Positions 1,539 through 26,686 of a stretch of DNA of 64,000 nucleotides are shown here, in pieces. This stretch comes from Leeuwenhoekiella palythoae (lineage in GTDB: Bacteria > Bacteroidota > Bacteroidia > Flavobacteriales > Flavobacteriaceae), in assembly GCF_900130045.1 (NCBI RefSeq), contig NZ_FQXT01000001.1:1-64000 (forward strand), written 5' to 3'. How positions within the stretch are numbered: position 1 is the first letter of the stretch; every line of letters starts with the position of its first letter. The translations under genes and the position numbers were made by a program. The notes under the pieces are model-generated. The model made no database searches, was not told the DNA's origin, and was given only the letters and a program-made list of their open reading frames with translations.

Positions 1539-1556
1539 ATTGAACGATTGGTCAAT
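1539..1556. promoter_or_regulatory. Probable TetR operator
   Basis: The 18-base sequence ATTGAACGATTGGTCAAT is an imperfect palindrome (7 of 9 pairs match). Palindromes with outer ATTGA and inner C/G pairs of this sort are typical TetR-family targets. It lies between the TetR start (1446) and the phosphodiesterase start (1602), the usual place for a shared operator. Confidence 0.55.
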
Positions 1557-1601
1557 CTATTTTTCTTGTCTGCTACTTTTGATGCCATCAAATCAAAAAA
1601 T

Positions 1602-2861: not shown

Positions 2862-2892
2862 TCAACAAAAAAGCAATTAATTTCAAAATGAC

Positions 2893-5985: not shown

Positions 5986-5997
5986 TACACCAAATTA

Positions 5998-7819: not shown

Positions 7820-9187
7820 CTAGAATTTAACCTTATACTCCGCTTTCATCCAATCATAAGGAGCTCGTGCAACCCATTGACCTCGTGTAAAATCAGGAAA
7901 CTCCTGCGGTTCACCATTATTTTCAATGGAAGCTTCTGAAAGCGGGGTTATCGCACTCCAAGCTGCAGCATCATATGCATCAATTGGTGGAGCAATATTA
8001 GCAATAGCAGATTCGACAAAAGCTTTCATTACAAAGTAGTCCATTCCTCCATGACCCGCACCAGTGGCTTCTTCTCCATATTTTTTCCAGACTGGATGGT
8101 CATATTTTTTCAACCACTCTTGTGAGTCATCCCAACGATGTGGTTGTGATTCTCCTTCAATATAGATACGATCTCCATCCTTCTCCCAAAGTCCGTTTGC
8201 GCCTTGCACTCGAAATCCTAGAGAATACGGTCTAGGTAAATTAGTGTCGTGAGTTACAATTATGGTTTCTCCATTAGCACATTCTATGGTTGAGGTGATT
8301 ATATCACCTTGTTTAAATTTAATCTTGGCATTGGGATGATCTTTACCTCCCTGATCTACAACATACTTGTGTAACCCCACCGCTTTAGTTGCATTGGCTG
8401 TCATACTGGTAAACCGATTCCCCCTATTAATATCCGCCATTGCCGCAATTGGTCCAACCCCGTGTGTTGGATACGTATCGCCGTTACGGTACACTGAATG
8501 TTTAGTGCGCCATTTTGCTTCAGAAAGTCCCTTTTCTCCAAATTCAACCCCACCTCCATAAGGCTGCTTACCATCATTAAATTTTACTGCTCTAAGATCG
8601 TGTTGGTATCCACAACGATAGTGTAGCATTTCACCAAAAACATTTTGTTTTACCATGTTTAGGACAGCCATAACATCTCTACGAAAGTTCACATTCTCCA
8701 AAAACATCATATGCGTTCCAGTAGCTTCGTGTGTATTCACTAAGTCCCAGCACTCTTCTATCGTTTGGGAAGCTGAAACTTCAAGTCCGGCATAAACACC
8801 TGCTTTCATAGCCGCCACTGCCATTTTAGTATGCCATAACCAAGGGGTAGCAATGATCACTGCATCTACTTCTTTGGAATCCAAAAGATTCAAATAGTCG
8901 TTTTCATTGTTACCAAATACCAAAGGTTTCCGTCTTCCGTCTTTTTCAATCAAATCTAAGGCGATCTCAATACGTTTGGGATCGATATCACAAATAGCAG
9001 TAATTTCAGTGTCCTTACGATGAATCGCATTATTAAGGTGATTGGTTCCTCGTAAACCAACTCCAATAAATGCAATCTTCAATTTTTCAGAGCTGTATTT
9101 AGTATTAGGAAAAACTAAATTGGGTGCAAGGGTTATCCCTGCTCCAACAATAGCTGATCCTTTAATAAAGTTTCTTCTTGAGTTCAT
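7820..9187 (-). CDS. GH109-like Gfo/Idh/MocA protein, probable alpha-N-acetylgalactosaminidase, Tat-exported
   Basis: A 455-residue protein starting with a twin-arginine signal (NSRRNFIKGSAIVGAGITLA), so it is folded with its cofactor before export. A Rossmann NAD-binding domain follows (AFIGVGLRGTNHL), then the Gfo/Idh/MocA C-terminal domain. Signatures THGVGPIAAMADINRGNRF and GHGGMDYFV match glycoside hydrolase family 109, whose members use NAD+ in an oxidation-elimination mechanism to remove alpha-linked GalNAc. Many related Tat-type oxidoreductases have no proven activity, so the substrate is inferred. It is the last gene of the SusC-SusD-DUF3472 operon, and the GalNAc-type kinase and epimerase genes upstream support the assignment. 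Confidence 0.8.
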   Translation of the reverse strand: MNSRRNFIKGSAIVGAGITLAPNLVFPNTKYSSEKLKIAFIGVGLRGTNHLNNAIHRKDTEITAICDIDPKRIEIALDLIEKDGRRKPLVFGNNENDYLNLLDSKEVDAVIIATPWLWHTKMAVAAMKAGVYAGLEVSASQTIEECWDLVNTHEATGTHMMFLENVNFRRDVMAVLNMVKQNVFGEMLHYRCGYQHDLRAVKFNDGKQPYGGGVEFGEKGLSEAKWRTKHSVYRNGDTYPTHGVGPIAAMADINRGNRFTSMTANATKAVGLHKYVVDQGGKDHPNAKIKFKQGDIITSTIECANGETIIVTHDTNLPRPYSLGFRVQGANGLWEKDGDRIYIEGESQPHRWDDSQEWLKKYDHPVWKKYGEEATGAGHGGMDYFVMKAFVESAIANIAPPIDAYDAAAWSAITPLSEASIENNGEPQEFPDFTRGQWVARAPYDWMKAEYKVKF

Positions 9188-9270
9188 AATCTAATTCTTA
9201 AATAATATGATTTTAATTTTTATTACAGTAGTATTTTGAAGGAGGTAAATATATTATCTACATTCAGCTT

Positions 9271-10617
9271 TTAGTTAAGAAGCTTGTCAAGAACTTCAAA
9301 ATCAATACTAGGCTTATTATTTGATGAGGTTCTGGTAAAAAGTGTATCAGGATTTATATTATCTGAGAAAAATCCACAATTTCTAAGAAAAAAAATTTCT
9401 TCATCACTTCCCCCTGAATAATCGAGTCGGCGTCCAGCTCTAGCTGTCGCATCTACAGTGAATTTGGCTTCCGTTACTTCGGTCCAAGTATCTGAGGTGT
9501 CATATACCCATTGGTTCTTATATAGCGCTTCTCGTTCTTGATTCCCAGTACTAGGACTGAAATTCTCTAAAAATGAATAAAAGCGTTTGAGATAACTCGT
9601 AGTTTTAGGTCTTCTAAAAGAAGCAATTAATTGCCATTCACCGGTTTCCGGGGCATAAAACCAAGCTGTATAATCTGAAGAATCGTTGACCGAAGGCTCT
9701 CCTTTCAATAAAAATTTATACGTAGTGCCTGCCTTCCAATTGTAAACTAAATGACTGTGTCCTCCTGACCCTTCGTTACCAAACTCTCCTGCATTTACAA
9801 CAGCACCTTTATCGAGAAGAATTATTTTCTGATCTTCAGGTATTTCTGAAGGATCATCAGTACTGTAGGGACTCCAAACAGAAAAAATCACACGTCGCTC
9901 GGTCTCGCTATTTACCTGAATTCCAAAATATCCAAAATTAAAACCATTGGCCGTAAAATAAGATCCAATCTTATCTTGCCCTTCAGGAACTTCTATTTCA
10001 CTATAGAAATAAGTAAGGTCCTTTTCTTCAGGAATAGAAAAATTCAGATGATCGGAAGGGCCACGACGACCGAAATAAAAATGTTCGGTATTTTTTATAT
10101 ATGTTATTTTCGAATCTGTTGCACTACCTCCTAATAAAATTTCTTTTAAATCGGCAATATATGCTCCCGTTTTTCCGAGTGCTCTAAATTCTAATTTGTG
10201 ATATCCTATAGGGATATCCTTAAATTCAGTAACTGCTATATCTTGATATGAAGAATTTGACAATTGGATATCTGTAACATTTCCATCTAGACTCACTTCA
10301 AGATTAGTTATACCGTCAGGTACTTTAACAACAAGCCCCACTTGCAAATCACCTTTTTGAGATGTTGCAAAATATGACTCAACTACATCCTCTGTTGATA
10401 TCCAATTATGAACACCTGTATCAAACACCAGACCTTGTGTTCTTTCGGCACTATTTTGAATCCAAGAATTTCCACCTGCGGGAATCCGGATCGTAAAATT
10501 ATATACCACATTTTCTTCGATCTCATTTTCTTTACAAGAGAATAAGGACACCAAAGTCATCAGCAAGAAAATCATTTTTGGTAATTTTTCTTTTAAGCTT
10601 TGGTATGTATTAGTCAT
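9271..10617 (-). CDS. DUF5077/DUF3472 surface lipoprotein
   Basis: A 448-residue lipoprotein (MTLVSLFSC lipobox, Cys near 28). The N-terminal half starts IRIPAGGNSWIQN and resembles the DUF5077 beta-sandwich; the C-terminal half, with YKFLLKGEP, WQLIASFRRPKT and LKRFYSFLENF, resembles DUF3472. Such proteins recur next to SusC/SusD pairs, but no biochemical role is known to me; glycan binding or cleavage is a guess. The start at 10617 is supported by translational coupling: its ATG overlaps the SusD stop by 8 bases (ATGACTAA). An alternative Met 14 codons later would still keep the lipobox. Confidence 0.8.
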   Translation of the reverse strand: MTNTYQSLKEKLPKMIFLLMTLVSLFSCKENEIEENVVYNFTIRIPAGGNSWIQNSAERTQGLVFDTGVHNWISTEDVVESYFATSQKGDLQVGLVVKVPDGITNLEVSLDGNVTDIQLSNSSYQDIAVTEFKDIPIGYHKLEFRALGKTGAYIADLKEILLGGSATDSKITYIKNTEHFYFGRRGPSDHLNFSIPEEKDLTYFYSEIEVPEGQDKIGSYFTANGFNFGYFGIQVNSETERRVIFSVWSPYSTDDPSEIPEDQKIILLDKGAVVNAGEFGNEGSGGHSHLVYNWKAGTTYKFLLKGEPSVNDSSDYTAWFYAPETGEWQLIASFRRPKTTSYLKRFYSFLENFSPSTGNQEREALYKNQWVYDTSDTWTEVTEAKFTVDATARAGRRLDYSGGSDEEIFFLRNCGFFSDNINPDTLFTRTSSNNKPSIDFEVLDKLLN

Positions 10618-12259
10618 TTTGAATTAAGCTTGGCTGAACATTAATTTGTGCCTCAGGGATGTACTCAATCACACGATCTTCTGATGGTTGGATTTCATAA
10701 TATGGATTATTTCCATTTAAATGCGTTCCTGGATAGCGTCTATTCATGGTTCTTCCGTTACGGAATACATCAAACTTACGATGCCCTTCATATGCCAATT
10801 CCATTCTCCTCTCCTGCAACACAATATCAAGAATAGTCATTCCTTCAGGAAACTCTGATGCATCATTGTAAGTTGTAATACCTGCTCGTGTGCGAATAGT
10901 GTTTATATCATTTAATGCATTCCCGACCTGATTTAATTTAGCATAAGCTTCTGCACGATTAAGATACATTTCCGCTAAGCGAGAAACCACGGGTGACCAT
11001 AATTGAGGTACATCATCTTGAAGCGAACATTTTAGTATAAAGAATTTGGGATATCCATTACGCTTTACCATATCGAAGTCTTTTATTACGTATTGTTTAT
11101 CTCCTGCAATAGTGGTGAAATAATACAGTGTTTGTGGACCAATTACTTCGGAAGAAATTAGATAATCGTTACCGTTGTCTGTAAAATAAGTTTCATTGCC
11201 TTGTTCAAAGGTTTGTCTAAACACATATTGATAATTCTCATTCACCCAATATACTGCCGGAATTAAATCTCCGTTAGCATCTGTGCTGTATTGAGGATCT
11301 ATAAATTCTAATCGTTTGTCAGTAGGATTTTTTCTGAGTAAGTCTAAAAAGTCATTTGAAGCATACATTTCACCCCATCCACTTCCTAATATATTTGCAT
11401 ACAATGAACCCACAGTATAATATCCATGATTATAGTCTGACTCTTCTAAAAATTTAAAACAGAAAATAGTTTCTGAATTATCATCTGGATTTATTCTTGT
11501 ATAATTAGGTAGTTCATCTGTGGAAAGTAAACTGTATCGCCCAGAAGCTATAACCTTTTCAGCATAATCAATTGCTTCTTGATTTTCCTCCATATATAAA
11601 TAAACACGGGATAGCAATGCTTGAGCGGCTTCTTTAGTTGCATAACTGTTGGATTTATTGACTGTCATCAATGATTCCGCCTTAAGCAAATCGGAAACTA
11701 CTTGATCATAAATTTCACCTACAGTAGCACGGTCTGGTAAATCATCTATCAGAGAAGTCAATTTCAAAGGTACTCCTAGGTTATCCCGTCCTTGATTGTA
11801 AGGGCGACCGAAAACATTTACCAATTGAAAATAAGCATATGCTCTTAAGTAATAATTCTCACCAATAAGTTGATCTGTTTCTTCAGATTCCCCTTCTGTG
11901 GTAAGCTCAATCATTTTATTACAGCCTACAATAGCCTGATAACCGGAGGTCCAAAAATTATTCACACGACCACTTGTAGCTAAGTTATTGTAATTGTAGG
12001 AATAAAATAATGCATCAGTTGTCGTCCCACTCAGAGCGACATTATCTCCAGGGTACTCTGCTATTCTATGAAATTGCGGAGCAAATCCATTTCCATCTGC
12101 ATCTCCCTTTAAGATCGCATAATTACCAAGCGTTGCTGCTTCTATTCCTCCTTCGCCAGATAATAATTCTTCTGAAGCAATAGAGTCATAAGGAAATCGC
12201 TCTACCTCACAACTTACAAGTATAACAGTGATGAATAATAGTTTAAATATAGTTTTCAT
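10610..12259 (-). CDS. SusD/RagB-family starch-binding-like outer membrane lipoprotein
   Basis: A 549-residue lipoprotein (MKTIFKLLFITVILVSCEVE, lipid on the Cys near 17). It carries the classic SusD pattern: YYLRAYAYFQLVNVFGRPYNQG near 140, EAAQALLSRVYLYMEENQEA near 210, LAEMYLNRAEAYAKLNQ, DINTIRTRAGI, and the C-terminal IVLQERRMELAYEGHRKFDVFR. It should form a lid on the SusC encoded 18 bases upstream and bind the target glycan at the cell surface. Its stop overlaps the next gene by 8 bases. The operon context suggests a ligand containing N-acetylhexosamine. Confidence 0.94.
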   Translation of the reverse strand: MKTIFKLLFITVILVSCEVERFPYDSIASEELLSGEGGIEAATLGNYAILKGDADGNGFAPQFHRIAEYPGDNVALSGTTTDALFYSYNYNNLATSGRVNNFWTSGYQAIVGCNKMIELTTEGESEETDQLIGENYYLRAYAYFQLVNVFGRPYNQGRDNLGVPLKLTSLIDDLPDRATVGEIYDQVVSDLLKAESLMTVNKSNSYATKEAAQALLSRVYLYMEENQEAIDYAEKVIASGRYSLLSTDELPNYTRINPDDNSETIFCFKFLEESDYNHGYYTVGSLYANILGSGWGEMYASNDFLDLLRKNPTDKRLEFIDPQYSTDANGDLIPAVYWVNENYQYVFRQTFEQGNETYFTDNGNDYLISSEVIGPQTLYYFTTIAGDKQYVIKDFDMVKRNGYPKFFILKCSLQDDVPQLWSPVVSRLAEMYLNRAEAYAKLNQVGNALNDINTIRTRAGITTYNDASEFPEGMTILDIVLQERRMELAYEGHRKFDVFRNGRTMNRRYPGTHLNGNNPYYEIQPSEDRVIEYIPEAQINVQPSLIQND

Positions 12260-12277
12260 TTCGCTATTTATTTTTGA

Positions 12278-15205
12278 TTAAAATGACAGATTAAGTCCAA
12301 ACGCAATACGCTTAGAAATAGGATATTGGGAGCTAGCATACCCATCAATTCCTACTTCAGGATCAGTTCCCGAAAAATCAGTAATGGTGAGTAAATTATC
12401 TCCAGTTAAGTACACTTCAAAATTACTCATGTGAAGATCGCTCAACCATTTTTGAGAGAAAGTATAGCCTAAACGAATATTACGCATTCTGAGATAGCTT
12501 GCATCTTCTAAATAACGTGAAGATGTTTTGTTAGAAAGGTTATTCCCTCCATAAAGAGCTCGTGGATGCGTGGCTATATCTCCTGGCTCCTCCCATCTAC
12601 TCCAACCATCCTGTAAAACCTGTTGATTATAGGTAGGATATGCTCCATCTGCGTCATATAGCTCTCTACTAGAATGATAAATCTGACCTCCTTGAGAAAA
12701 ATTAAAGTTTGCGCTAAGTGAGAATCCTTTATAAAGCATCATCGAACTGAAACCTCCATAAAAATCAGGAGTTGAACTACCTACAATCTGTTTTGTGGCT
12801 GCATTATAATCCGTTGTTTCTGAACGCTCTCCAGTATTAGGATCAACCGTTTCCCATAAAGGGTTTCCAGTCTCAGAATCTACTCCTAACCATTTACGCA
12901 TAAACCAAGTGTTATAATCCTCTCCTACACGAGACAGTTTAGTACCTCTGTCTATATCTTCACCCTCAAAAAGCTCGGTAACTTCATTGCTATTGGTTCC
13001 AATATTCCCAGTTATAGTCCAGCCAAAGCCGCTTTGGTTTTCCTGAAAAATATCTACAGAAAGATTGGCTTCAAAACCAGTATTAACCACTCCTCCAATA
13101 TTTTCATAATATCCATTATAACCACTTGTAGAGGGCAGAATCACATAGTACAATAAGTCTGAGGTATCCTTATTATAATATTCTAAAGAAAAACTTGCAC
13201 GATCAAAGAAGCGGCTATCTAAGCCTATATTAGTCTGATATGAAATTTCCCAAGCTAAATCATCATTTCCATATTGATATGGAGATGGCGCTGGCAAACC
13301 ATTGTATGTACTCTGTAAACTATATAGATCATACTGTGGATAGAGTGCCGCTGGTCTGTTTCCTACTGCGCCATAACTGGCTCGTAGCTTAAGTTGATTT
13401 ATTTCCTTTACTTTAAAAAAGCTTTCATTATGTATATTCCAACCTAAGCTACCAGAGTAAAAGGTACCGTACTGATTGTCTTTTCCAAAATTTGAGGCTC
13501 CATCCCTACGTATAGAGAACTGTGCTAAATAGCGATTATCATACCCGTAATCAGCATTAAACAATACAGACTGAAGAGCAGAATCATTTGTAGTCCCTGA
13601 TACCGCTCCTGGTGTAGCAGCATTATCCAAAATTGTGGTACCCGATACAATCCCATAGCCAGTAGCACCACTAGAGGTATATTTATAATCCTGATATTCA
13701 TAACCTAAAAGTGCATTTATACGATGCGCACCCATTGATTTTGAATACTTCAACATCTGATTTGTAAAGTTGGTTATACGTTTAGTGTTGTACTTATATA
13801 GTTGACCATTATTAGCAAGACCACTAGTTGATTTGGGGTCTGTATAAGTCATACCATCAGCATAGTAAAAAGTTACACTATTAGTAGAAATAAATTTTAA
13901 ATCAGGAAGAATCTGATATTCTAAATCCATATTAGAAAAAAGATTTAGCTCCCTACTATTGCTATAGTTATATTGTAAGTTATAGAGATAATTTGCATTA
14001 TCTCTCCCGTACCAAATCTGACCACTTTCTAGATCCTGAGGATTTATAATAGTTCCATTAATATCAGTAGGGGTATCCCAAGGCATATAAGTATACAGAG
14101 CATAAAGAGAATGTTGCCGATTATTTCGCTTATTGTAGTTTACAGCCACCTTTGGTTTTAGCGTAAGCCTTTCTCCAATTTTGTAGTCGTGATTCAAACG
14201 AGCACTTACTCTATCATATTTGTATCCTTTGAGTGTTCCTGTCTCATTATAGTATCCTAATGACAGGAATGTTTTTGACTTTTCATTGCCGCCGGTAAAT
14301 GTTAGATTATGATCCTGAATCACTCCTGTTTGAGTACCATTCTCAAACCAATCAAAATCATTAGCCAATACGCTTTCATCAATTCCTTCAGGAATATTAT
14401 CTTGATTTCCAAAAGATTGATAGTAATCATAGAGTTGCTGTGAATTCATCGTTTCAAAATTGCCATTGTTAAAATAACTGTAACCCAATCTTGAGGAAAT
14501 AGTGAGTGTATTTTGATCTAGTTTAGCTTGCTTGGTAGTCACCACAACGACACCATTTGCACCGCGAGAACCGTATAATGCTGTTGCTGAAGCATCTTTT
14601 AAAACAGATATACCTTCGACATCATTTGGATTTAAATTGGGGGTTCCGTGTACAATTACTCCATCAAGTACCCAAAGCGGATTTGTACCTCCATTAATTG
14701 AAGTTAAACCTCGAATCCGTACCGATGGCAAAGAACCCGGTTGTCCTGATCCCTGCACCACTTGTACTCCGGCAGCTTTACCCTGAAGCATTGTAGAAAC
14801 ATCTGAAGTGGTAACATCGGTAAGCTCTTTAGACTTGACTTCTGATACAGCCGAAGTAACACTTGATTTTTTTTGTTCGGTATAGCCTACTACCACAATT
14901 TCATCTAATTCTGAGGTAGATGATTCGAGACTCACATTAACTGTAGTCATTGTAGATACTATAACTTCTTTTGGCTTAAAACCTAAGTAAGTAAAAACAA
15001 GGATTTGACCTGATTCTGCTGATATACTATAGTTTCCATCAAAATCGGTTACCACTCCTGTAGAAGTTCCTTTTATCTGAACATTAGCTCCAGGAATAGG
15101 CGATCCGGATTTTGAATCAGTCACTATTCCCGTAATTGCGCTTTGTGCGAAAACTGCGCTTGCAGTACACAAAACGAAAAAAATTGTGCTTAAAATTTTA
15201 ATCAT
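12278..15205 (-). CDS. SusC/RagA-type TonB-dependent outer membrane transporter
   Basis: A 975-residue protein with signal peptide (MIKILSTIFFVLCTASAVFA), a carboxypeptidase-D-like domain at about 22-98, the family hallmark DEIVVVGYTEQKK near 105, a plug domain (VRIRGLTSINGG, LKDASATALYGSRGANGVV), and the beta barrel up to YPISKRIAFGLNLSF. It opens the operon SusC, SusD, DUF3472 lipoprotein and GH109-like enzyme. Its 270-base leader contains a LacI-type operator at 15284-15309 and other palindromes, so it should be induced by an amino sugar together with the catabolic operon. Confidence 0.94.
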   Translation of the reverse strand: MIKILSTIFFVLCTASAVFAQSAITGIVTDSKSGSPIPGANVQIKGTSTGVVTDFDGNYSISAESGQILVFTYLGFKPKEVIVSTMTTVNVSLESSTSELDEIVVVGYTEQKKSSVTSAVSEVKSKELTDVTTSDVSTMLQGKAAGVQVVQGSGQPGSLPSVRIRGLTSINGGTNPLWVLDGVIVHGTPNLNPNDVEGISVLKDASATALYGSRGANGVVVVTTKQAKLDQNTLTISSRLGYSYFNNGNFETMNSQQLYDYYQSFGNQDNIPEGIDESVLANDFDWFENGTQTGVIQDHNLTFTGGNEKSKTFLSLGYYNETGTLKGYKYDRVSARLNHDYKIGERLTLKPKVAVNYNKRNNRQHSLYALYTYMPWDTPTDINGTIINPQDLESGQIWYGRDNANYLYNLQYNYSNSRELNLFSNMDLEYQILPDLKFISTNSVTFYYADGMTYTDPKSTSGLANNGQLYKYNTKRITNFTNQMLKYSKSMGAHRINALLGYEYQDYKYTSSGATGYGIVSGTTILDNAATPGAVSGTTNDSALQSVLFNADYGYDNRYLAQFSIRRDGASNFGKDNQYGTFYSGSLGWNIHNESFFKVKEINQLKLRASYGAVGNRPAALYPQYDLYSLQSTYNGLPAPSPYQYGNDDLAWEISYQTNIGLDSRFFDRASFSLEYYNKDTSDLLYYVILPSTSGYNGYYENIGGVVNTGFEANLSVDIFQENQSGFGWTITGNIGTNSNEVTELFEGEDIDRGTKLSRVGEDYNTWFMRKWLGVDSETGNPLWETVDPNTGERSETTDYNAATKQIVGSSTPDFYGGFSSMMLYKGFSLSANFNFSQGGQIYHSSRELYDADGAYPTYNQQVLQDGWSRWEEPGDIATHPRALYGGNNLSNKTSSRYLEDASYLRMRNIRLGYTFSQKWLSDLHMSNFEVYLTGDNLLTITDFSGTDPEVGIDGYASSQYPISKRIAFGLNLSF

Positions 15206-15283
15206 AATTAATGTTGTTTGATTATTTGATTGATTTTAAAAAGTTTTCTGCTTGTCTGATTCTTTAAATCCACTCAGGTACTA

Positions 15284-15309
15284 TAAAAGTGTTCTCGAGC
15301 ACACTTTTA
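15284..15309. promoter_or_regulatory. LacI-type operator in front of the SusC operon
   Basis: A 26-base palindrome with 12 of 13 pairs matching, centred on TGTTCTCGAGCACA. The central CG and the CGAGCACA arm are shared with the sites at 15443-15478, 23345-23362 and 23369-23382. It lies about 80 bases upstream of the susC start, within the leader or promoter, where binding of the LacI regulator encoded at 23424 would block transcription. Confidence 0.7.
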
Positions 15310-15314
15310 GTTAA

Positions 15315-15336
15315 AAAAATAGTTGTAACTATTTTT
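15315..15336. promoter_or_regulatory. Second palindrome in the SusC leader
   Basis: Arms AAAAATAGTT and AACTATTTTT are exact complements around a two-base centre. It sits five bases from the LacI-type operator. It may bind another regulator or form a leader hairpin; nothing more can be said from sequence. Confidence 0.4.
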
Positions 15337-15442
15337 AAATCTAATATAGATTGCCTAAAATCAATTTAATTATACCATTACTCAAAAAAATAATATTCAA
15401 AAATCATCATTCTTTGTTAAGATTTTACTAATCTAATACATT

Positions 15443-15478
15443 TAAATTAATTATGTGCACGAGCACATAATTAATTTA
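15443..15478. promoter_or_regulatory. LacI-type operator / palindrome between the two amino-sugar operons
   Basis: A 36-base palindrome (17 of 18 pairs) whose core ATGTGCACGAGCACAT matches the LacI-type operator consensus except for one central base. It overlaps the stop codon of the phosphomutase gene and lies about 240 bases upstream of susC. It may be an upstream operator for DNA looping, and in RNA it could also act as a terminator for the upstream operon. Confidence 0.6.
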
Positions 15479-16867: not shown

Positions 16868-16877
16868 TGTTATTCTA

Positions 16878-18806
16878 TTAATATTCCCATTTTACAAAAG
16901 CTTCCATTGCTGCATAATGCGCAAGTCCGAGCTTGTCATACAACTCTGCGGTCTCGCGGTTACGATCTTCTGCACGTTGCCAAAACTCTCTACTGTCTGA
17001 TCCTTGAAAAACAACTCCGTCTTTTTGAGACTGGTGTTTAAATATTCCAAAACGCTTTTCTATTACCTGATCTGGTCCCATAGGCACCGCCATATCAATT
17101 TCATCGATACCCCATTCTTGCCATGCACCTCGGTATAACCACAACCAGCAGTCTTTCATAAAATCTTTATGCTTGATTTGTTTTAAAGCCTCAAAAACAG
17201 CATCAAGGCACACTTTGTGGGTTCCGTGCGGATCAGCAAGATCTCCAGCTGCGTAAATTTGATGTGGCTTAACTTGCTCTATAAGATCAATTGTAAGTGC
17301 AATATCTTCAGCTCCTAATGGATTTTTTTCAATTGCTCCTGTTTCGTAAAACGGCAAATTCATAAAATGAATCTGACTATCGGGTAAGCCCACAAAATGG
17401 CTGGTAGCTCGAGCTTCTCCACGACGAATAATTCCTTTGATTTGTCGAAGTTCTGGAATGTCTATACCTCCTATTTCTTTGGTTTTTAAAAAATCAAAAC
17501 TCTTATTATATATACGTTGAGCTTCGTCACAAGAAATACCGAATGCCTCATTATAATCTGTAATAAATTTTGCAAAACGTATCGCCTCATCATCGGCAAC
17601 TGCAATATTTCCTGATGTTTGGTAAGCCACGTGCACTTCATGTCCCTGCTCGTGTAATCTCTTAAACGTGCCCCCCATACTTATAATATCGTCATCAGGA
17701 TGCGGACTAAAAATTAACACCCGTTTTTTAGCTGGCAGTGCTCGCTCTGGTCGCTTGTTATCATCTGCACCCGGTTTTCCTCCTGGCCAGCCCGTTATGG
17801 TATTTTGTAGTTTATTAAATATACGTATGTTGATATCGTATGCCGGGCCCATTTGTGCCAGCAAATCGCTCATTCCGTTCTCAATATAATCTGCATCGGT
17901 AAGCATTAAAATGGGTTTTTCTAAGCTTATGGCCAAATCTAAAACCGCTTTACTAATCAGTTTATCTGTCCAATTTACTTCTTCTACTAACCACGGTTTG
18001 TTAATACGGGTAAGCTTAGACGCAGCCTCTTTATCCAACACAAAATCTACATGTTGATGCTCTTGTAAAAAAGATGCCGGCACAAGATTAGTAAGTCCTT
18101 CTTCTACTGCTTTTGCAATAATTGCAGATTTACTTTCGCCCCAGGCTAAAAGAATAACCCGCTTAGCTTCCATTATTTTATGAACGCCAAGTGTAATTGC
18201 CGTACGGGGGGTGTGTTTTAAACCTTCAAACTCTTTACTTGCAGCAATACGAGTACTGTGGTCTAGCGCTACCAGTCGTGTTTTAGAATTTTGCAAAGAT
18301 CCAGATTCATTAAAGCCTATATGACCGTTACCTCCTATTCCTAAGATTTGTAAATCAATCCCTCCTGCTTTTTCGATTTGATCCTCATATTGAGTACAAA
18401 AACCAGCAATCTCATTTTTTGCAAGCGTTCCATCGGGTATATGAATATTTACTTTTAAAATATCTATATGATCAAAAAGCTGCTCATTCATAAATCGTAC
18501 ATAACTGTGTATCGATTCTGCCTTCATTGGGTAATACTCATCCAGATTGAAGGTAATTACATTTTTAAAGCTCAACTGTTCTTCTCGATGTAATCGCACC
18601 AGTTCTGCATACAAGCTCTTGGGCGACGAGCCCGTTGCTAATCCTAATACACAAGTTTTATTTTGGCTTTGCTTTTCTTTAATAAGTGCAGCTATTTGTT
18701 GAGCTACTGCTTTTGACGCATTCGCGGAATTATCAAAAACATGAGTATTGATTTTCTCAAAACGTTTTTCAAATTCGGTAGCAGTGTCTATTGTACTAGT
18801 GAACAT
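16878..18806 (-). CDS. nagB: Glucosamine-6-phosphate deaminase fused to a PIG-L (LmbE-like) deacetylase domain
   Basis: A 642-residue two-domain enzyme. Residues about 15-290 are NagB: phosphate loop TGSSPKSL near 60, FNLDEYYP near 90, and GIGGNGHIGFNE near 160. The second domain starts near 360 with FSPHPDDDIISMGG, and the late motif DPHGTHK gives the remaining zinc ligand, as in LmbE/PIG-L N-acetylglucosamine deacetylases. NagB turns glucosamine-6-P into fructose-6-P and ammonia. Fused proteins of this type are widespread in Bacteroidota, but the role of the second domain is not settled. No nagA lies nearby, so it might remove the acetyl group from GlcNAc-6-P; that is a hypothesis. A 22-base gap separates it from the permease gene. 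Confidence 0.9.
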   Translation of the reverse strand: MFTSTIDTATEFEKRFEKINTHVFDNSANASKAVAQQIAALIKEKQSQNKTCVLGLATGSSPKSLYAELVRLHREEQLSFKNVITFNLDEYYPMKAESIHSYVRFMNEQLFDHIDILKVNIHIPDGTLAKNEIAGFCTQYEDQIEKAGGIDLQILGIGGNGHIGFNESGSLQNSKTRLVALDHSTRIAASKEFEGLKHTPRTAITLGVHKIMEAKRVILLAWGESKSAIIAKAVEEGLTNLVPASFLQEHQHVDFVLDKEAASKLTRINKPWLVEEVNWTDKLISKAVLDLAISLEKPILMLTDADYIENGMSDLLAQMGPAYDINIRIFNKLQNTITGWPGGKPGADDNKRPERALPAKKRVLIFSPHPDDDIISMGGTFKRLHEQGHEVHVAYQTSGNIAVADDEAIRFAKFITDYNEAFGISCDEAQRIYNKSFDFLKTKEIGGIDIPELRQIKGIIRRGEARATSHFVGLPDSQIHFMNLPFYETGAIEKNPLGAEDIALTIDLIEQVKPHQIYAAGDLADPHGTHKVCLDAVFEALKQIKHKDFMKDCWLWLYRGAWQEWGIDEIDMAVPMGPDQVIEKRFGIFKHQSQKDGVVFQGSDSREFWQRAEDRNRETAELYDKLGLAHYAAMEAFVKWEY

Positions 18807-18828
18807 TCTTGTTTTCTTTTTATTGTTT

Positions 18829-20157
18829 TTATTTTGACCAACTTTTTATGCGACATCCCCATATTGCAAATAACAGGATGATAAGGTAACAAGGGATTAA
18901 TAAGATGTAACCTGAGTTTGCTGCTTCTCCCGCAGCAACTGCAGCGGTAGTTCCTTCTTGCATTAAATCTGCTTTATTGACATCTACAAGTCTACCGTAT
19001 AACGGTGGAATTAACGCACCACCAGAAATACCCATTACCAGCAATGCAGAACCTGTTTTTGTATGTTTTCCTAGATTACTAAGTGATAAAGGCCATATTG
19101 CAGGCCACACCATTGCATTTGCAATACCTAATGCCGCAATTAGTAATACCGAAGTAAATCCTGTGGTATTGATGATTAATACACTTAAAACAATTCCTAA
19201 TGTGGCACTTATAATTAATGCATTGCGCTGCTCTATGTACTTAGGTATTAAAAATATTCCTAATGCATAAGAGCAAACCATTGCAAGCAACGTATAAGAG
19301 GTAAAAAACTTAGATTGTTCTGCAGGAAACCCCTGTGCCAAACCGTAAGAAATGATACTATCACCAGCAATAACCTCAACTCCTACGTAAACAAAAAGTG
19401 CTAAAACCCCAAATAGCAAATGCGGATAATGAAGTACCGTTTTTTTTGAATCTTCTGCTCCCGATTCATCAGATTCGGTAGCTTCTAGCTCAGGTAATGG
19501 TGCTTTACGTATAAGCAGAGCAAAAATAAACAGGCATATAGCCATAATAATATAAGGCCATACCACGCTATCTGCCATTTGATCTAGTAATACATTTTTA
19601 TTACTAGTTTCAGCAAGCTTAATTTTATCTTGAGTTGCTTCAATCCCTGAGAGTAATAATGCACCAAATATCAGGGATCCCAGAGCTCCTGCAACTTTAT
19701 TAGAAATCCCCATAATTGCAATGCGTTTTGCAGCACTCTTAATTGGACCCAAAATGGTGATGTAAGGATTTACCGCTGTTTGTAACAACGTCATTCCTGC
19801 TCCCTGAATAAATATACCTATGAGAAAATAAGAATATGTACGTGCTTCTGCGGCCGGCACAAAAACCAATGCTCCTAACCCCATAATAAATAAACCCAGT
19901 GACATCCCTTTGCAGTAGCCTATTCGTTTTAATATGGCAGATGCTGGAAGTGCCATTACCACAAACGAGATGTAAGATGCAGATGCAACCAGATACGACT
20001 GCTGGTCGGTGAGCTCATTAATAGCCTTCATAAATGGTATAAGCGCCCCATTTATCCAGGTTACAAATCCCAGTATAAAAAACATTCCGGCTATAATAGC
20101 AATCGAAACATTTTTTGAATCCTGTGGTTCTTTTATTTGTATTGCAGTATCGGCCAT
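18829..20157 (-). CDS. FHS-type sugar MFS permease, probable N-acetylhexosamine transporter
   Basis: A 442-residue inner membrane protein with about 12 hydrophobic segments. The opening GFVTWINGALIPFMK is characteristic of the fucose/glucose/GlcNAc permease group of the major facilitator family (FucP and NagP relatives). It should import the monosaccharide by proton symport. Its ATG overlaps the epimerase stop by one base (TAATG), showing tight coupling. The operon suggests GalNAc or GlcNAc as substrate, but specificity cannot be read from the sequence. Confidence 0.87.
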   Translation of the reverse strand: MADTAIQIKEPQDSKNVSIAIIAGMFFILGFVTWINGALIPFMKAINELTDQQSYLVASASYISFVVMALPASAILKRIGYCKGMSLGLFIMGLGALVFVPAAEARTYSYFLIGIFIQGAGMTLLQTAVNPYITILGPIKSAAKRIAIMGISNKVAGALGSLIFGALLLSGIEATQDKIKLAETSNKNVLLDQMADSVVWPYIIMAICLFIFALLIRKAPLPELEATESDESGAEDSKKTVLHYPHLLFGVLALFVYVGVEVIAGDSIISYGLAQGFPAEQSKFFTSYTLLAMVCSYALGIFLIPKYIEQRNALIISATLGIVLSVLIINTTGFTSVLLIAALGIANAMVWPAIWPLSLSNLGKHTKTGSALLVMGISGGALIPPLYGRLVDVNKADLMQEGTTAAVAAGEAANSGYILLIPCYLIILLFAIWGCRIKSWSK

Positions 20158-21095
20158 TATGCTTCTTTTACTTGTGCCAGCAATTCACTTTCATAAAATG
20201 CTACAGTTTCTTTTAAACCTTCTTCTATAGAATACTTTGGTTCAAACCCTTCTTTCTGAAATTTTTCTGGATTTGCCTGAGAGTGCTTTATATCACCAGC
20301 TCTCGTTTCTTTAAATAGTATTTCAGACTTTGAATTGGTGATTTTGATAATAAATTCTGCCAGTTCCAGTACCGAAGTACTGTTTCCTAATGCCACGTTA
20401 TAAACCCCTTTACCTGTTTGTGATGCGAGTAAATTTGCTGCTACAACATCTTTTACATAGATAAAATCACGCGTTTGCTGCCCATCACCATAAATTATAA
20501 GTGGCTTGTTTTGCAATGCATTTAAAATAAAAATAGGAACTACTGCAGCATAAGCCGACTTGGGGTTTTGACGCGGACCAAATACATTAAAATAGCGCAA
20601 AGAGGTGGTAGGTACATCAAACTGATTGCGGTACATATCGAGGTAATACTCCCCATCAAGCTTAGTAATAGAATAGGGTGTTAAAGGTTCTGGTGTCATC
20701 GCTTCTACTTTGGGAGAAACCGGATTATCACCATAATTTGCCGCAGAAGAAGATAGGATTACTTTACATTTTCCTGCCCTTTTTGCCGCTTCGAGAATAT
20801 TAATTGTTCCCTGAGCATTAATTGCATTACACTCGGCTATTTTACTTATAGATTCTGGCACACTAACTAATGCCGCAAGATGAAAAATCGCTGATGCACC
20901 GGAAACTAATTTATTTACAGTATCGATATTTCTAATATCGCCTTGCTCAAATTTTAAATTAAAAGGATCGATATTTTTTTGAAATCCAGTGCGTAAACTA
21001 TCCAATACAACAACCTCATGACCTTCTCCCACAAGATGTTCTGCAATGTGACTTCCTATAAAACCAGCCCCACCCGTTATTACATATTTTTTCAT
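20157..21095 (-). CDS. NAD-dependent UDP-sugar 4-epimerase-like SDR enzyme
   Basis: A 312-residue extended short-chain dehydrogenase. It shows the Rossmann motif GGAGFIGSH at residue 8, the catalytic Ser in SSSAANYG, and the YSITK Tyr-Lys pair. The segments RYFNVFGPRQNP and YGDGQQTRDFIYVKDV are typical of UDP-glucose/UDP-GlcNAc 4-epimerases. Between a sugar 1-kinase and a nucleotidyltransferase, the most sensible job is interconversion of UDP-GalNAc and UDP-GlcNAc, as LnpD does in bifidobacteria. It overlaps the kinase gene by 4 bases and the permease by one. Other UDP-sugar epimerase roles are possible. Confidence 0.85.
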   Translation of the reverse strand: MKKYVITGGAGFIGSHIAEHLVGEGHEVVVLDSLRTGFQKNIDPFNLKFEQGDIRNIDTVNKLVSGASAIFHLAALVSVPESISKIAECNAINAQGTINILEAAKRAGKCKVILSSSAANYGDNPVSPKVEAMTPEPLTPYSITKLDGEYYLDMYRNQFDVPTTSLRYFNVFGPRQNPKSAYAAVVPIFILNALQNKPLIIYGDGQQTRDFIYVKDVVAANLLASQTGKGVYNVALGNSTSVLELAEFIIKITNSKSEILFKETRAGDIKHSQANPEKFQKEGFEPKYSIEEGLKETVAFYESELLAQVKEA

Positions 21096-22207
21096 AGCTG
21101 TTTTACTTTTACAATAGATTTACTCAGTTTTAAAATCTCGTTATATTGATCTTCAAAACTTTCGATAAGTTTAAATTGATTTTTAGCCCGATCTAGATTG
21201 TGCTCGTCATACGAGGTTTTATAATACACATCGCCCGCCAGATAATCTGTTAGAAATCGTAAACCCATTATGAAGATTATAGTTTTTGCGCCTAGCGGCA
21301 AAAATTGGATTTCAACTTCTGATAATGAGTCTCGTAATTCCTCTAAAAACCCCTTGAGATATGCCTCATAGTAATCTACATTAAAGGATACCAGACTTAG
21401 GTCTTTTTGATCCTCTTCGGCTGTATTGCAAATGGTGCGTATTGCATCTCCAAAGTCATTATGCACAATACCGGGCATCACTGTATCTGTATCGATAACA
21501 CATAAACCCTTATTATTTGCGTCAAACAGCGCATTCGAAATTTTTGTGTCGTTATGAGTTACTCGAGTTGGAATTTTACCTTCATCCTTTAACTGCTGTA
21601 ACAAGACCATTTCTTCTTGTAATGCCGCTACCTTTTCAATTTGATAAGCTGCACATTCTAAGCGCATTGCAGATGCGTTTTTCTTTGCCTGCTCAAATTG
21701 CAATAACCGTCTGGGAACATCATGAAATCCCGGAATTATTTCTACCAATTGGCACGCATCAAAGTCACTAGTCTGACTGATAAATTTACCAAAGAGCTTT
21801 CCGCCTTCATAAGCAATTTCTTTATTTGTAACAGTATCAAACGAAACACTCTTTGCTATGTAGTAAGTTAAATTCCAATATTTATTGAAAGCATCCTGAT
21901 AATAATAAGCACCCGTTTTGGCAGGTAAAAAAGTAAGAACACGTCTGTATTTTTCTTCGGTATCTAATTCTGGAATTTTTGCAGCAAGATGCTTACTCAC
22001 CTTAACTTTATTGTTAACCAGCTCTTCTACATTATTAAAAACCTCATCATTTATACGCTGCAATACAAATTGTTGTCCTTCGGCAGTGCTTATAAAATAG
22101 GTATCATTAATGTGACCACTAGAAAATTCTTCTATATCAGTAATTGTGCAGTTATGATTAAACGCATTAAAAACTGAAGCTATTAATTCGTTTGTATTTA
22201 ATCCCAT
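21092..22207 (-). CDS. nahK: N-acetylhexosamine 1-kinase-like phosphotransferase
   Basis: A 371-residue protein of the aminoglycoside phosphotransferase (APH) fold. SSGHINDTYFI near residue 30 is the nucleotide loop, VTHNDTKISNALFD the catalytic loop, and CVIDTDTVMPG the metal-binding Asp. These follow NahK/LnpB, which makes GlcNAc-1-P or GalNAc-1-P with ATP. Its ATG overlaps the end of the nucleotidyltransferase gene by 10 bases, and its stop overlaps the epimerase gene by 4. Kinase, uridylyltransferase and epimerase in a row reproduce the bifidobacterial lnpBCD order of functions, although no lnpA phosphorylase gene is present. Confidence 0.82.
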   Translation of the reverse strand: MGLNTNELIASVFNAFNHNCTITDIEEFSSGHINDTYFISTAEGQQFVLQRINDEVFNNVEELVNNKVKVSKHLAAKIPELDTEEKYRRVLTFLPAKTGAYYYQDAFNKYWNLTYYIAKSVSFDTVTNKEIAYEGGKLFGKFISQTSDFDACQLVEIIPGFHDVPRRLLQFEQAKKNASAMRLECAAYQIEKVAALQEEMVLLQQLKDEGKIPTRVTHNDTKISNALFDANNKGLCVIDTDTVMPGIVHNDFGDAIRTICNTAEEDQKDLSLVSFNVDYYEAYLKGFLEELRDSLSEVEIQFLPLGAKTIIFIMGLRFLTDYLAGDVYYKTSYDEHNLDRAKNQFKLIESFEDQYNEILKLSKSIVKVKQL

Positions 22208-23139
22208 AAGTGCACCGGGTAAACTGCGTTATCTTTTAATTTTTTAATTTCTGTTTGCGCAATGGCTTTATCTTCTTTATAGGTTACTCCAAACCATTTT
22301 TCGGGAGTACTTAATACTTCTACACTCACTTTATCAGATTGTAACATCTCATTTACTACAGTAGGTATAAAAAATTCGGCTTTTATATTGCCTTTACTAC
22401 GCTCCAGAAATTCATTAAAAAGCTCCCATCCAAATTCAAAACATTTAGGCGTAAAACCCCAAAAGTTCATAGAAACAAATGTTTCCGGATCAATAAGCTC
22501 TAGGTCGCCACTCTCGTTTTCTACTAAAATTTTATCCCCTTGTTTCTCAATATGTGTACGTTCGGTAACATCCTCGAGATAGCCATCTTGAGAGACTTTA
22601 CATTCTCCACGAGAGACATACCCGTGATCTGACACTGTATTCTTAAGTTGAAAAGCAACCATATTAAAATGATAAGAATCACTATCTATATCATTTAGAG
22701 CGTTTGCCATTATTATAAAAGACTCACGCCCATAAAAGTCATCTGCATTAATGATTGCAAAATTTTCTTTTACTACATCCTTAGTTAGCAATAAGGCGTG
22801 TCCTGTTCCCCAAGGTTTAGTGCGATTAGAATCTACAAAGGCATCTGGCACACGATCTAATTCCTGAAATACATAATCTACCTCAGCTTTACCTTTTAAT
22901 TTAGGTTCAAAAACCTCCTTAAACTCTTCTAATAAATTCTCTCTTATGATGAATACAATTTTTTTAAACCCAGCCTCAATCGCATCATAGATCGAAAAAT
23001 CAATTATAGTATCCCCTTGCGGCGAAAATGTATCTAGCTGTTTTAAACCACCATATCTACTCCCTATTCCGGCAGCAAGTATAACAAGTGTAGGTCCTTT
23101 AGAATTTTGCATTTCTGTTGACATAAATGTGTTTTTCAA
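22198..23139 (-). CDS. Sugar-1-phosphate nucleotidyltransferase
   Basis: A 313-residue enzyme with the nucleotidyltransferase signature LVILAAGIGSRYGGLKQ near residue 18 and a catalytic-type NADDFYG near 130. It should join a sugar-1-phosphate to UTP (or another NTP). With the kinase and epimerase behind it, the expected reaction is HexNAc-1-P plus UTP to UDP-HexNAc. It is the first gene of the operon, preceded by a leader of about 200 bases carrying two LacI-type operators. Starts at 23139 and 23124 are both possible; the longer form is listed. Confidence 0.84.
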   Translation of the reverse strand: MKNTFMSTEMQNSKGPTLVILAAGIGSRYGGLKQLDTFSPQGDTIIDFSIYDAIEAGFKKIVFIIRENLLEEFKEVFEPKLKGKAEVDYVFQELDRVPDAFVDSNRTKPWGTGHALLLTKDVVKENFAIINADDFYGRESFIIMANALNDIDSDSYHFNMVAFQLKNTVSDHGYVSRGECKVSQDGYLEDVTERTHIEKQGDKILVENESGDLELIDPETFVSMNFWGFTPKCFEFGWELFNEFLERSKGNIKAEFFIPTVVNEMLQSDKVSVEVLSTPEKWFGVTYKEDKAIAQTEIKKLKDNAVYPVHLWD

Positions 23140-23344
23140 AAATTTTGGTTGATTGTTAATAGTTTTCTAAACCTGAGTTTGAAAACCTGTATTAACACAA
23201 TTTGATTTCTTATTAATTTAAAAATTACAAAGCACTGTAAATCAGTTTTTTATTTAAAAGATTATTTGCTCTCACACGTTATTAATCTTTAAATCTGGTA
23301 CAATTTATCTAAAAAGAATCTGAAAAAAAAGCAATTTTGACAAA

Positions 23345-23362
23345 AATGTGCTCGAACACATT
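23345..23362. promoter_or_regulatory. LacI-type operator, regulator-side copy 1
   Basis: AATGTGCTCGAACACATT is an 18-base palindrome with one mismatched pair and the central CG step typical of LacI-family sites. It lies between the divergent nucleotidyltransferase operon and the LacI gene, 61 bases before the LacI start. Confidence 0.7.
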
Positions 23363-23368
23363 AAAAAA

Positions 23369-23382
23369 TGTTATCGAGCACA
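23369..23382. promoter_or_regulatory. LacI-type operator, regulator-side copy 2
   Basis: TGTTATCGAGCACA has a perfect right half and a weaker left half of the shared consensus. Its centre is 22 bases, about two helical turns, from the centre of the copy at 23345-23362, so two dimers could bind side by side on the same face of the DNA. Confidence 0.6.
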
Positions 23383-23410
23383 CATTAGTCTGATAATTCA
23401 TATAGATTAT

Positions 23411-23418
23411 TATCTTTG
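23411..23418 (+). promoter_or_regulatory. -7 promoter box of the lacI gene
   Basis: TATCTTTG fits the Bacteroidota -7 consensus TAnnTTTG. It ends only five bases before the ATG at 23424, so the transcript would be leaderless or nearly so. Confidence 0.5.
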
Positions 23419-23423
23419 TTTTA

Positions 23424-24470
23424 ATGAAAGAAAATTACACCATTAAAGATATCGCAGAATTAGCTGGCGTATCTAAAGGCACTGTAGATCGTGTAATTCA
23501 TAAGCGCGGAAAAGTATCTCCTAAAGCTTTGGAACAGGTAAATAAAGTACTTGATAAAATTGAGTATAAACCCAATCCTATTGCAAAGAGTCTTAAAAAT
23601 AATAAGATCTATAATATTGCCATATTATTACCCGATGCTGATGCAGACCCCTACTGGCTTCCCTGTTATGAAGCTATAAAGCAGATTGAGCAGGAATTTA
23701 GTCATTTTGGTATCAAAATAAATAAAGGTGTATTTAAACCAAAGTCTACAAAATCATTTACCAAAGCTGCAGATCTAGTCATAGCCGAAAAACCAGATGC
23801 TGTATTAATGGTTCCGTTATTTTATAAGGAAGCAGAGCATGTTGCGAAAATGTGTGTAGCTGCAGGTATTAAAATCGCCACGTTTAATAACTATATTAAA
23901 GAACCACAAATTAATCTCGAGATTGGTCAGGATTTGTTTCAAAGTGGACGTGTAGCGGCAAAGTTGTTTAATATGCTATTAGGAAATAAAGCAACGCTAG
24001 CTGTTTTGCATATAGATGAAGCCTTTCAAAATGCCTCGCATATGCAGGAAAAGGAACGCGGCTTTAAAGATTATTTTGCTCAAAAAGAATTAGCTTATAC
24101 CATTAACGTTCACAACATTAAAAAGGAATCTAAAATTCCATTTGACCAGACTATAGAAAACTTTTTAAAATCTCTTGATGCCGTTGACGGATTATTTGTT
24201 ACAACTTCTAAAGCCTATTTACTAGCAAATCATATTGCAGCTTATTTACCAAAAAGTTTTATTATAGGTTATGACCTCGTGGCCGAAAATATCAAATACT
24301 TAGAAGAAGACAAAATTGCCTTTTTAATACATCAAGATCCTAAAAAACAAGTGTATTTAAGTTTAACTAATCTGATTGAGTTTTTCCTATTTGATAAGCC
24401 TTTACAAGAATCCTTAACGCTTCCTATTGATATTATCAATACCGAAAATTACCCACAATACTTAAATTAA
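23424..24470 (+). CDS. LacI-family transcriptional regulator of the amino-sugar locus
   Basis: A 348-residue regulator. The N-terminal LacI helix-turn-helix (YTIKDIAELAGVSKGTVDRV, residues 5-24) and hinge helix region (NPIAKSLKNN) are clear. The remainder is a periplasmic-binding-protein-like sugar sensor domain (IAILLPDADADPYW and following), of the type that binds a sugar or sugar phosphate and releases DNA. It is divergent from the nucleotidyltransferase operon, and four matching palindromes lie at both operon fronts. Its 3' end overlaps the convergent CBM9-like gene by 4 bases. The inducer is probably an N-acetylhexosamine or one of its phosphates. Confidence 0.92.
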   Translation: MKENYTIKDIAELAGVSKGTVDRVIHKRGKVSPKALEQVNKVLDKIEYKPNPIAKSLKNNKIYNIAILLPDADADPYWLPCYEAIKQIEQEFSHFGIKINKGVFKPKSTKSFTKAADLVIAEKPDAVLMVPLFYKEAEHVAKMCVAAGIKIATFNNYIKEPQINLEIGQDLFQSGRVAAKLFNMLLGNKATLAVLHIDEAFQNASHMQEKERGFKDYFAQKELAYTINVHNIKKESKIPFDQTIENFLKSLDAVDGLFVTTSKAYLLANHIAAYLPKSFIIGYDLVAENIKYLEEDKIAFLIHQDPKKQVYLSLTNLIEFFLFDKPLQESLTLPIDIINTENYPQYLN

Positions 24471-25123: not shown

Positions 25124-25271
25124 TGAAACCTCAATTTTTAAAAGTAATAGCAAATATTAGATTCATAATATATCACAATAAGCCAGTATATAAAATTAAA
25201 ATTACCAAACCAATCTCAAATGAAGCTTCTAATTTTTCTGTCTACTAAGGATAACCTTATTGAGAAACCCT

Positions 25272-26514: not shown

Positions 26515-26686
26515 AATATTCGTCTTTAAATGAAACATTTTTCAAGACGAAAGCCAAACGTAAGTACTTAAATTTAAGCATTTTAAACCTTAATTCGGTC
26601 AACAAAATAAAAGTTTAAATTTGTTGACCGATTTGTGGTATTTTTTATTGAATTTAAAGCTATTTAAATAAATCCATAAAAAACAT

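Follow-up and report, generated by a model that had tools for sequence, protein, structure and literature searches.

The subject of this analysis is a locus at positions 7820-24470 of a 64,000-nucleotide stretch of Leeuwenhoekiella palythoae DNA (contig NZ_FQXT01000001.1, positions 1 to 64,000; hereafter the window), which probably constitutes a dedicated regulon for scavenging N-acetylgalactosamine (GalNAc) and would catabolise this sugar via UDP-sugars to fructose-6-phosphate. According to profile scans and reading-frame coordinates, the locus consists of ten minus-strand genes placed head to tail in two tight groups, accompanied by a divergent regulator gene, in a genome of 4.03 Mb that is 99.99% complete. 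All genes named in a first-pass annotation of the window were located there. Its proposal that GalNAc is routed via UDP-sugars to NagB is supported, as a hypothesis drawn from sequence, by the group-3 pocket of the epimerase, the co-occurrence of kinase and transferase, the operator shared with the GH109 operon and the lack of an AgaS match. Yet that annotation overlooked that the NagB gene encodes a 642-residue fusion with a PIG-L deacetylase domain and that one operator is common to both operons, and its pathway scheme contained no deacetylation step, for which the PIG-L domain is proposed here.

The first operon comprises, in order, a sugar-1-phosphate nucleotidyltransferase (22198-23139), a kinase (21092-22207), a 4-epimerase (20157-21095), an FHS permease (18829-20157), the NagB and PIG-L fusion (16878-18806) and a GlmM paralogue (15476-16867), with gaps of -10 to +22 bp. 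It is separated by 270 bp from the second operon, in which gaps range from -8 to +83 bp and which comprises a SusC-like TonB-dependent transporter (12278-15205; TIGR04056, 822 bits), a SusD-like protein (10610-12259; profile scan), a DUF5077-DUF3472 protein (9271-10617; profile scan) and a protein of GH109, the alpha-N-acetylgalactosaminidase family, with a twin-arginine translocation (Tat) signal (7820-9187). Having a SusC/SusD pair and a glycoside hydrolase in one operon, the locus has the composition of a Sus-type polysaccharide utilization locus (PUL). The GH109 C-terminal domain scores 297 bits (cut-off 27), and the closest solved relative of the protein is the alpha-N-acetylgalactosaminidase 2ixa (E 7.2e-159). 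The exact GGHGG acid/base loop motif is absent from the protein, which has a GAGHGGMD loop with the same letters as the GAGHGG of 2ixa. On the plus strand, a gene for a LacI-family regulator (23424-24470; profile scan) diverges from the first operon.

In the proposed mechanism, glycans or glycopeptides carrying GalNAc would be taken up by SusC and SusD into the periplasm, where the Tat-exported GH109 enzyme would free GalNAc for import by the FHS permease. The kinase would convert GalNAc to GalNAc-1-phosphate, the nucleotidyltransferase would convert this to UDP-GalNAc, and the epimerase would yield UDP-N-acetylglucosamine (UDP-GlcNAc). The same nucleotidyltransferase, or GlmU, working in reverse with pyrophosphate (PPi), would then release GlcNAc-1-phosphate, so that UTP and PPi would merely cycle. 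The GlmM paralogue would produce GlcNAc-6-phosphate, from which the fusion would form glucosamine-6-phosphate (GlcN-6-P) with its PIG-L domain and fructose-6-phosphate with its NagB domain. LacI would keep the two operons repressed as long as neither GalNAc nor an intermediate of the pathway is present. We infer from sequence all substrates, the reversal of the pyrophosphorylase reaction, which of mutase and deacetylase acts first, the assignment of LacI to its sites and the inducer. Least certain are the substrate on which the PIG-L domain acts and the conversion of UDP-GlcNAc to GlcNAc-1-phosphate by reverse pyrophosphorolysis.

The conservation of the operon was assessed in 296 Bacteroidota genomes, in which a strong transferase match was defined as E < 1e-40; this retained 52 of 64 matched genomes, and the 12 weak ones were dropped. 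The transferase is present in 52 genomes and the kinase in 46, with both in 45, the transferase only in 7, the kinase only in 1 and neither in 243, a co-occurrence with a Fisher probability of 1.5e-44 when phylogeny is ignored. The transferase's surroundings were read in 52 sample loci, taken from the 51 other strong-transferase genomes with one entered twice. In 23 of these loci the kinase is found no more than about 10 kb from the transferase (adjacent and on the same strand in 22); at such distances a GH109 homologue occurs in 13 and the NagB fusion in 5. Among the best 80 of 589 confirmed matches, many of whose loci end at contig edges, the kinase lies no more than about 10 kb from the transferase in 24, adjacent on the same strand in 21, and a GH109 homologue in 3.

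The first-pass annotation had suggested searching flavobacterial genomes for the same gene order, and the six homologues of the first operon were indeed found in that order in four other loci: L040 and L041 of the sample loci, and L092 (Leeuwenhoekiella polynyae) and L094 (Flavicella marina) of the best 80 of 589. Given this recurrence, the arrangement is beyond chance. An extra open reading frame precedes the mutase in L094, and the permeases of L040 and L041 are 43% identical. In Labilibaculum euxinus (L109) and Plebeiobacterium marinum (L122), the transferase, kinase, mutase, permease, a canonical GalE and a NagB-like protein occur in another order and without GH109; the divergent NagB-like protein scores 188-190 bits, below the fusion cut-off of 384. 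In Draconibacterium mangrovi (L117), the transferase, kinase, mutase and permease lie, again in a different order, beside GH109 and SusC/D, and neither the epimerase nor NagB was seen in the stretch. Lacrimispora celerecrescens (L160, 9998-13106) has the transferase, kinase and GalE in a row. One of the short forms of the operon, L043, is adjoined by GH20 and GH2 genes, and L094 by a gene for a GH88-like protein; these neighbours are other hints of GalNAc-bearing substrates.

The kinase is of the APH family and resembles the N-acetylhexosamine 1-kinase NahK (4wh1, E 1.8e-68), being 37% identical to that of Bifidobacterium longum over 350 positions. Its full-length relatives in the PDB are NahK only, other matches covering 30 residues of repeat proteins. 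We take Asp208, Arg306, Tyr317 and His31 of NahK to be active-site residues; the first three positions are kept in 48 of 48 aligned rows (the window's kinase and 47 homologues), and that of His31 in 34 of 48, the window's included. The window's kinase thus carries the NahK residues and is predicted to phosphorylate GalNAc or GlcNAc at C1. The nucleotidyltransferase (PF00483) is 47% identical to 3pnn of Porphyromonas gingivalis (E 9.1e-88; Foldseek E 8.7e-37), with the RmlA, GalU and GlmU folds next at 13-18% identity, and is proposed to be a UTP:HexNAc-1-phosphate uridylyltransferase. Its model, with a predicted local distance difference test score (pLDDT) of 89, has a pyrophosphorylase fold, which suggests a reaction that is reversible in principle. 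The PDB titles of 3pnn read conserved domain protein or glycosyltransferase and name no substrate. Among the best 80 of 589 matches, the closest listed relative of the transferase is that of L. polynyae, which is 88% identical.

The epimerase has the signature of group 3 (WbpP type), i.e., a small residue at the position of E. coli Tyr299, Ala at that of Asn199 and the catalytic Ser-Tyr-Lys set, and is therefore a candidate UDP-GlcNAc/UDP-GalNAc 4-epimerase. Its pocket residues are Ser and Ala, as in WbpP, where E. coli GalE has Tyr and Asn, and the Ser/Ala pocket is found in the epimerases of the window, L040, L092 and L094. In the portions of PMC6668579 that deal with these pockets, acceptance of N-acetyl sugars is said to depend primarily on a small residue, Cys or Ser, at the first position, and WbpP to have the small Ala209 in its second pocket. 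The GalE proteins of L109, L122 and L160 all exceed the galE cut-off. That of L160 has Cys at the pocket position, as in GalE enzymes accepting both UDP-glucose and UDP-GlcNAc, and the same locus has a second transferase at 3069-3998. The permease scores 410 bits with NagP_SO3503 (below the cut-off of 625) and 265 bits with gluP (above the cut-off of 202.55). The mutase exceeds the cut-off of Arch_GlmM and is the second GlmM-like phosphohexosamine mutase of the genome, its paralogue being at C8:67313-68671.

The fusion (NF002557, 1049 bits) combines an N-terminal NagB deaminase with a C-terminal PIG-L/LmbE domain, and its model (mean pLDDT 85, predicted template modelling score 0.73) matches NagB and, lower down, diacetylchitobiose deacetylase. 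The comparison covered 26 fusions, namely that of the window, five from loci with the operon and 20 others hand-picked for spread. The residues His369, Asp372 and His530, which correspond to the HPDD...HxxH metal triad of PIG-L/LmbE deacetylases, are invariant in all 26. In the NagB half, the window's protein has Asn at what we take to be Asp141 in E. coli numbering, as does 2bkv. The NagB half of the L177 fusion reads FNMYEY and GRVGNIAFNE, and NagB catalytic positions vary across the L173-L192 loci, with the PIG-L triad invariant. The PIG-L domain is the best candidate deacetylase on sequence grounds.

In its own genome, the fusion is the sole recognised NagB; the only other PF01182 protein, considered as a possible separate NagB, is a 6-phosphogluconolactonase (pgl, 193.8 bits against a cut-off of 124.45). 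No NagA above the cut-off was found in that genome, the best match scoring 31 bits. A classical agaSI/nagK route elsewhere in the genome, together with an operon not induced by any amino sugar, would according to the first-pass annotation speak against its proposal; the classical Aga route was checked and rejected, given 0 AgaS matches. Across the 296 genomes, AgaS has 0 matches above the cut-off and 28 weaker ones, with more than 150 bits in 17. The fusion is above the cut-off in 121 genomes, NagA in 42 and both in 23, such that 98 of the 121 fusion genomes have no NagA above the cut-off. Where NagB is presumed to be unfused (26 genomes, NF002557 best E of 1e-110 to 1e-55), NagA is present in 16, versus 23 of 121 genomes with the fusion, a difference with a Fisher probability of 3e-5 that ignores phylogeny and uses thresholds chosen after seeing the data. 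The lower share of NagA among fusion genomes fits a role of PIG-L as its stand-in.

The two operons are connected by an operator-like palindrome, TGTGYTCGARCACA, scanned in the form TGTGYTCGAVMACA, of which two copies lie between the LacI gene and the nucleotidyltransferase and two between the GlmM paralogue and SusC. The former are TGTGTTCGAGCACA (23347-23360), which matches both strands, and TGTGCTCGATAACA (23369-23382), which matches one strand at 1 mismatch and the other at 2. The latter, TGTGCTCGTGCACA (15454-15467) and TGTGCTCGAGAACA (15290-15303), match both strands. At up to 1 mismatch the window has 7 matches versus 0.13 expected, and at up to 2 mismatches 10 versus 2.64 expected. Genome-wide, 12 motif matches at 9 places were found with up to 1 mismatch. 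The sole three places in the genome with a two-strand match at this threshold are all within the locus, whose fourth site matches on one strand.

The operator scan of relatives covered 11 related loci. The motif occurs between LacI and the transferase in L040, L041, L042, L092, L093 and L094, i.e., in six of the seven scanned relatives with the operon or its short form, and also in the gap between mutase and SusC of L092, L040 and L041, the last two of which were not used to define it. In L122 there is a lone site, inside the GalE reading frame. Since the operator is common to both operons, GH109 and the Sus pair are tied to the cytoplasmic enzymes. The pattern suggests a small, local regulon, and the LacI protein, by its adjacency, presumably binds the putative sites. 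A scan for sigma-70 promoters and terminators was uninformative, with results at or below those of shuffles. In two relatives, an extra pair of operator sites lies beyond the CBM9 gene (L040:14883-14973 and L041:5323-5414). The pair in L040 is upstream of a gene for a 627-residue secreted protein (12641-14524) with a Pfam match to a sorting tail only, which may be a further member of the regulon.

A number of observations weigh against this interpretation. With regard to the operator, a reversed control pattern has 26 matches in the genome, more than the motif's 12, so that the total is not in excess and it is the clustering and the two-strand matches that carry weight. Moreover, the motif was defined by inspecting these very regions, which makes the window count partly circular, and hence the relatives weigh more; among the 11 loci scanned, no operator sites were found in L043, L109, L117 and L160. 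With regard to the enzymes, the base and sugar specificity of the transferase cannot be read from its sequence, and hydrolysis of PPi would make the reverse pyrophosphorolysis unfavourable. The GalE proteins of L109 and L122 are ambiguous, having Ile at the pocket position. The Asp141 position in the 26 fusions is occupied by Asn in 10, Thr in 9, Ser in 6 and Val in 1, so that not all fusions need be good deaminases. The short forms L042, L043 and L093 have no operon epimerase or mutase, and L042 also has no permease.

The distribution across the 296 genomes includes further points of this kind. The fusion is missing from 7 of the 45 genomes in which kinase and transferase co-occur, and the transferase occurs without the kinase in 7 of 52 (G064, G119, G158, G190, G238, G249 and G273). 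An AgaS-like gene is present in 3 of these 7, compared with 2 of the 45 that have the kinase as well, and the transferase may therefore serve a further purpose. NagA shows a weak positive association with the fusion (odds ratio 1.9, p 0.06) and a clear one with the transferase (18 of 52 genomes that have the transferase versus 24 of 244 that do not); of the 38 genomes that combine transferase, kinase and fusion, 15 retain NagA. Given these counts, the argument from NagA is strong for the genome of L. palythoae and no more than suggestive for the phylum.

Other explanations were considered. The kinase, transferase and epimerase could make UDP-HexNAc for the cell envelope from scavenged GalNAc or GlcNAc, with NagB and GlmM balancing the pool. 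UDP-GalNAc and UDP-GlcNAc are biosynthetic precursors, the kinase is near the transferase in 23 of the 52 sample loci where the NagB fusion is in only 5, and 7 of 52 transferase genomes do without the kinase. Nevertheless, we consider such salvage unlikely, since the operon also holds a second mutase, the only recognised NagB of the genome and a permease, and a Sus/GH109 operon has the same operator; in addition, deletion of the NahK-like kinase of Bacteroides thetaiotaomicron blocks growth on GalNAc, according to the main text of PMC11992087. A hardly different, likewise low probability is assigned to a variant with the same entry through UDP-GlcNAc, in which PIG-L would act on GlcNAc-1-phosphate or another intermediate and the GlmM paralogue on GlcN-1-P. 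The canonical substrate of phosphoglucosamine mutases is non-acetylated, and the mutase scores as one of these (Arch_GlmM); furthermore, the PIG-L half is similar to diacetylchitobiose deacetylase, an enzyme that does not act on sugar phosphates. However, the fusion of PIG-L to NagB makes successive reactions on 6-phosphates more likely, and 77 of the 121 fusion genomes have no strong transferase match, the substrate there likely being GlcNAc-6-phosphate formed via a GlcNAc kinase.

The locus could instead serve GlcNAc, with the kinase forming GlcNAc-1-phosphate, the mutase and fusion finishing its catabolism, and the transferase and epimerase having side functions. The permease resembles NagP, and NahK of B. 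longum accepts both sugars in the passages of PMC11992087 and PMC8106489 concerned. This explanation appears highly improbable, given it needs neither transferase nor epimerase while the operon has both, the transferase is found in 45 of 46 kinase genomes, and GH109 is in the regulon. The B. thetaiotaomicron kinase BT4240 also prefers GalNAc about 275-fold, as stated in the main text of PMC11992087. The genome may furthermore encode a separate GlcNAc kinase, a weak candidate with 33.7 bits for PF01869 (cut-off 31.5) and 29.7 bits for NagK_SO3507 (cut-off 370). Recycling of peptidoglycan sugars is carried out by AmgK and MurU, an APH-type anomeric kinase and a nucleotidyltransferase, and such a pair could resemble the one found here; we give this next to no credence, as the kinase has only NahK as full-length PDB relatives and recycling leaves no place for GH109, the Sus genes, the epimerase and NagB. 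The GalNAc-scavenging regulon is thus preferred. Its extension to an AgaS-free UDP-sugar shunt in many Bacteroidota is more tentative, with a chance a little short of even: one broad pyrophosphorylase would charge GalNAc-1-phosphate and discharge UDP-GlcNAc, cycling UTP and PPi for a net conversion of GalNAc-1-phosphate to GlcNAc-1-phosphate, and the fused deacetylase-deaminase would replace NagA and NagB.

In comparison with characterised systems, the locus resembles at its entry the B. thetaiotaomicron PUL BT4240-50, in which the main text of PMC11992087 (2025) places SusC/SusD, GH109, an MFS permease and BT4240, an APH-family GalNAc 1-kinase whose deletion stops growth on GalNAc. That PUL also has GH2 and an M60-like protease, neither of which is among the scanned locus proteins. 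Term searches of the main text (epimerase, nucleotidyl, UDP, nagB) show no enzyme described after the kinase, and the present locus differs from what that text describes in packaging candidate downstream steps. The B. longum galacto-N-biose/lacto-N-biose (GNB/LNB, lnp) pathway resembles the proposed route in leading from GalNAc to UDP-GlcNAc by NahK, uridylyl transfer and a 4-epimerase, but as presented in the relevant parts of PMC6668579 and PMC8106489 it uses GalT (EC 2.7.7.12) and a group-2 GalE, where the locus has a pyrophosphorylase-fold enzyme and a group-3 type epimerase. Of the bifidobacterial-type set recognised by the first-pass annotation, the NahK-type kinase therefore stands, while the transferase is of the PF00483/3PNN fold and not GalT; no GalT-type uridylyltransferase is in the locus, the rest of the genome not having been searched for it. 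The phosphorylase (lnpA, GLNBP) reported missing is indeed absent from the ten scanned proteins of the locus, with no search for it made in the remaining genome, and no ABC transporter is among the locus proteins, unlike in B. longum. The proposed starting point, free GalNAc released by GH109, also differs from that of B. longum.

The classical Aga pathway catabolises GalNAc as well, but by 6-phosphate chemistry with AgaS/AgaA and tagatose-6-phosphate, as outlined in the pertinent part of PMC5583593, whereas the genome of the locus has no AgaS match. The NagK-NagA-NagB pathway likewise ends in GlcN-6-P deaminase; the locus differs in having PIG-L fused to NagB and no NagA above the cut-off. 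The proposed HexNAc route would hence be distinct in enzyme families, packaging and starting point but not in chemistry, which has precedents: the first step is already known from B. thetaiotaomicron and the overall chemistry from bifidobacteria. No report of a pyrophosphorylase-type transferase, group-3 epimerase, mutase paralogue and deacetylase-deaminase fusion in one Sus-linked regulon was found among the papers listed from the open-access PMC literature. Nor was there, among those papers, any on the fusion as a GlcNAc-6-phosphate deacetylase, a Bacteroidetes UDP-GalNAc route or the operon. For NagB of the Flavobacterium johnsoniae chitin locus, the section concerned of PMC5127042 gives failed expression, a deletion without effect on chitin use and NagA predicted elsewhere, which is neutral here.

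Around the locus, a gene for a CBM9-like protein (24467-25153, minus strand) follows the LacI gene and is a recurrent neighbour, with homologues in L040, L041, L043, L092, L094 and L109. These proteins, of 211-228 residues in the loci read, repeatedly adjoin the LacI gene or the kinase cluster. A tyrosine recombinase gene (25342-26538; Arm-DNA-bind_5 and phage integrase, with a partial C-terminal match) adjoins the locus and is possibly the remnant of a mobile element. On the other side, at 1548-7443, lies a second SusC/SusD-like pair preceded by a phosphodiesterase-type protein; a TetR-like gene diverges from them, and no operator copy is found there.

In the relevant part of the 2017 human-gut genome reconstruction (PMC5583593), there is one GalNAc route, via tagatose-6-phosphate, found only in Actinobacteria, Firmicutes and Proteobacteria, although two Bacteroides genomes have 17 GalNAc-releasing enzymes each. 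In the present locus, candidates for the steps after the GalNAc 1-kinase are brought together in a single operon. The locus also suggests a function for the 3PNN family, so far uncharacterised, and a possible substitute for NagA, and would thereby offer an answer to how marine flavobacteria use GalNAc without the textbook enzymes, one that is testable enzyme by enzyme.

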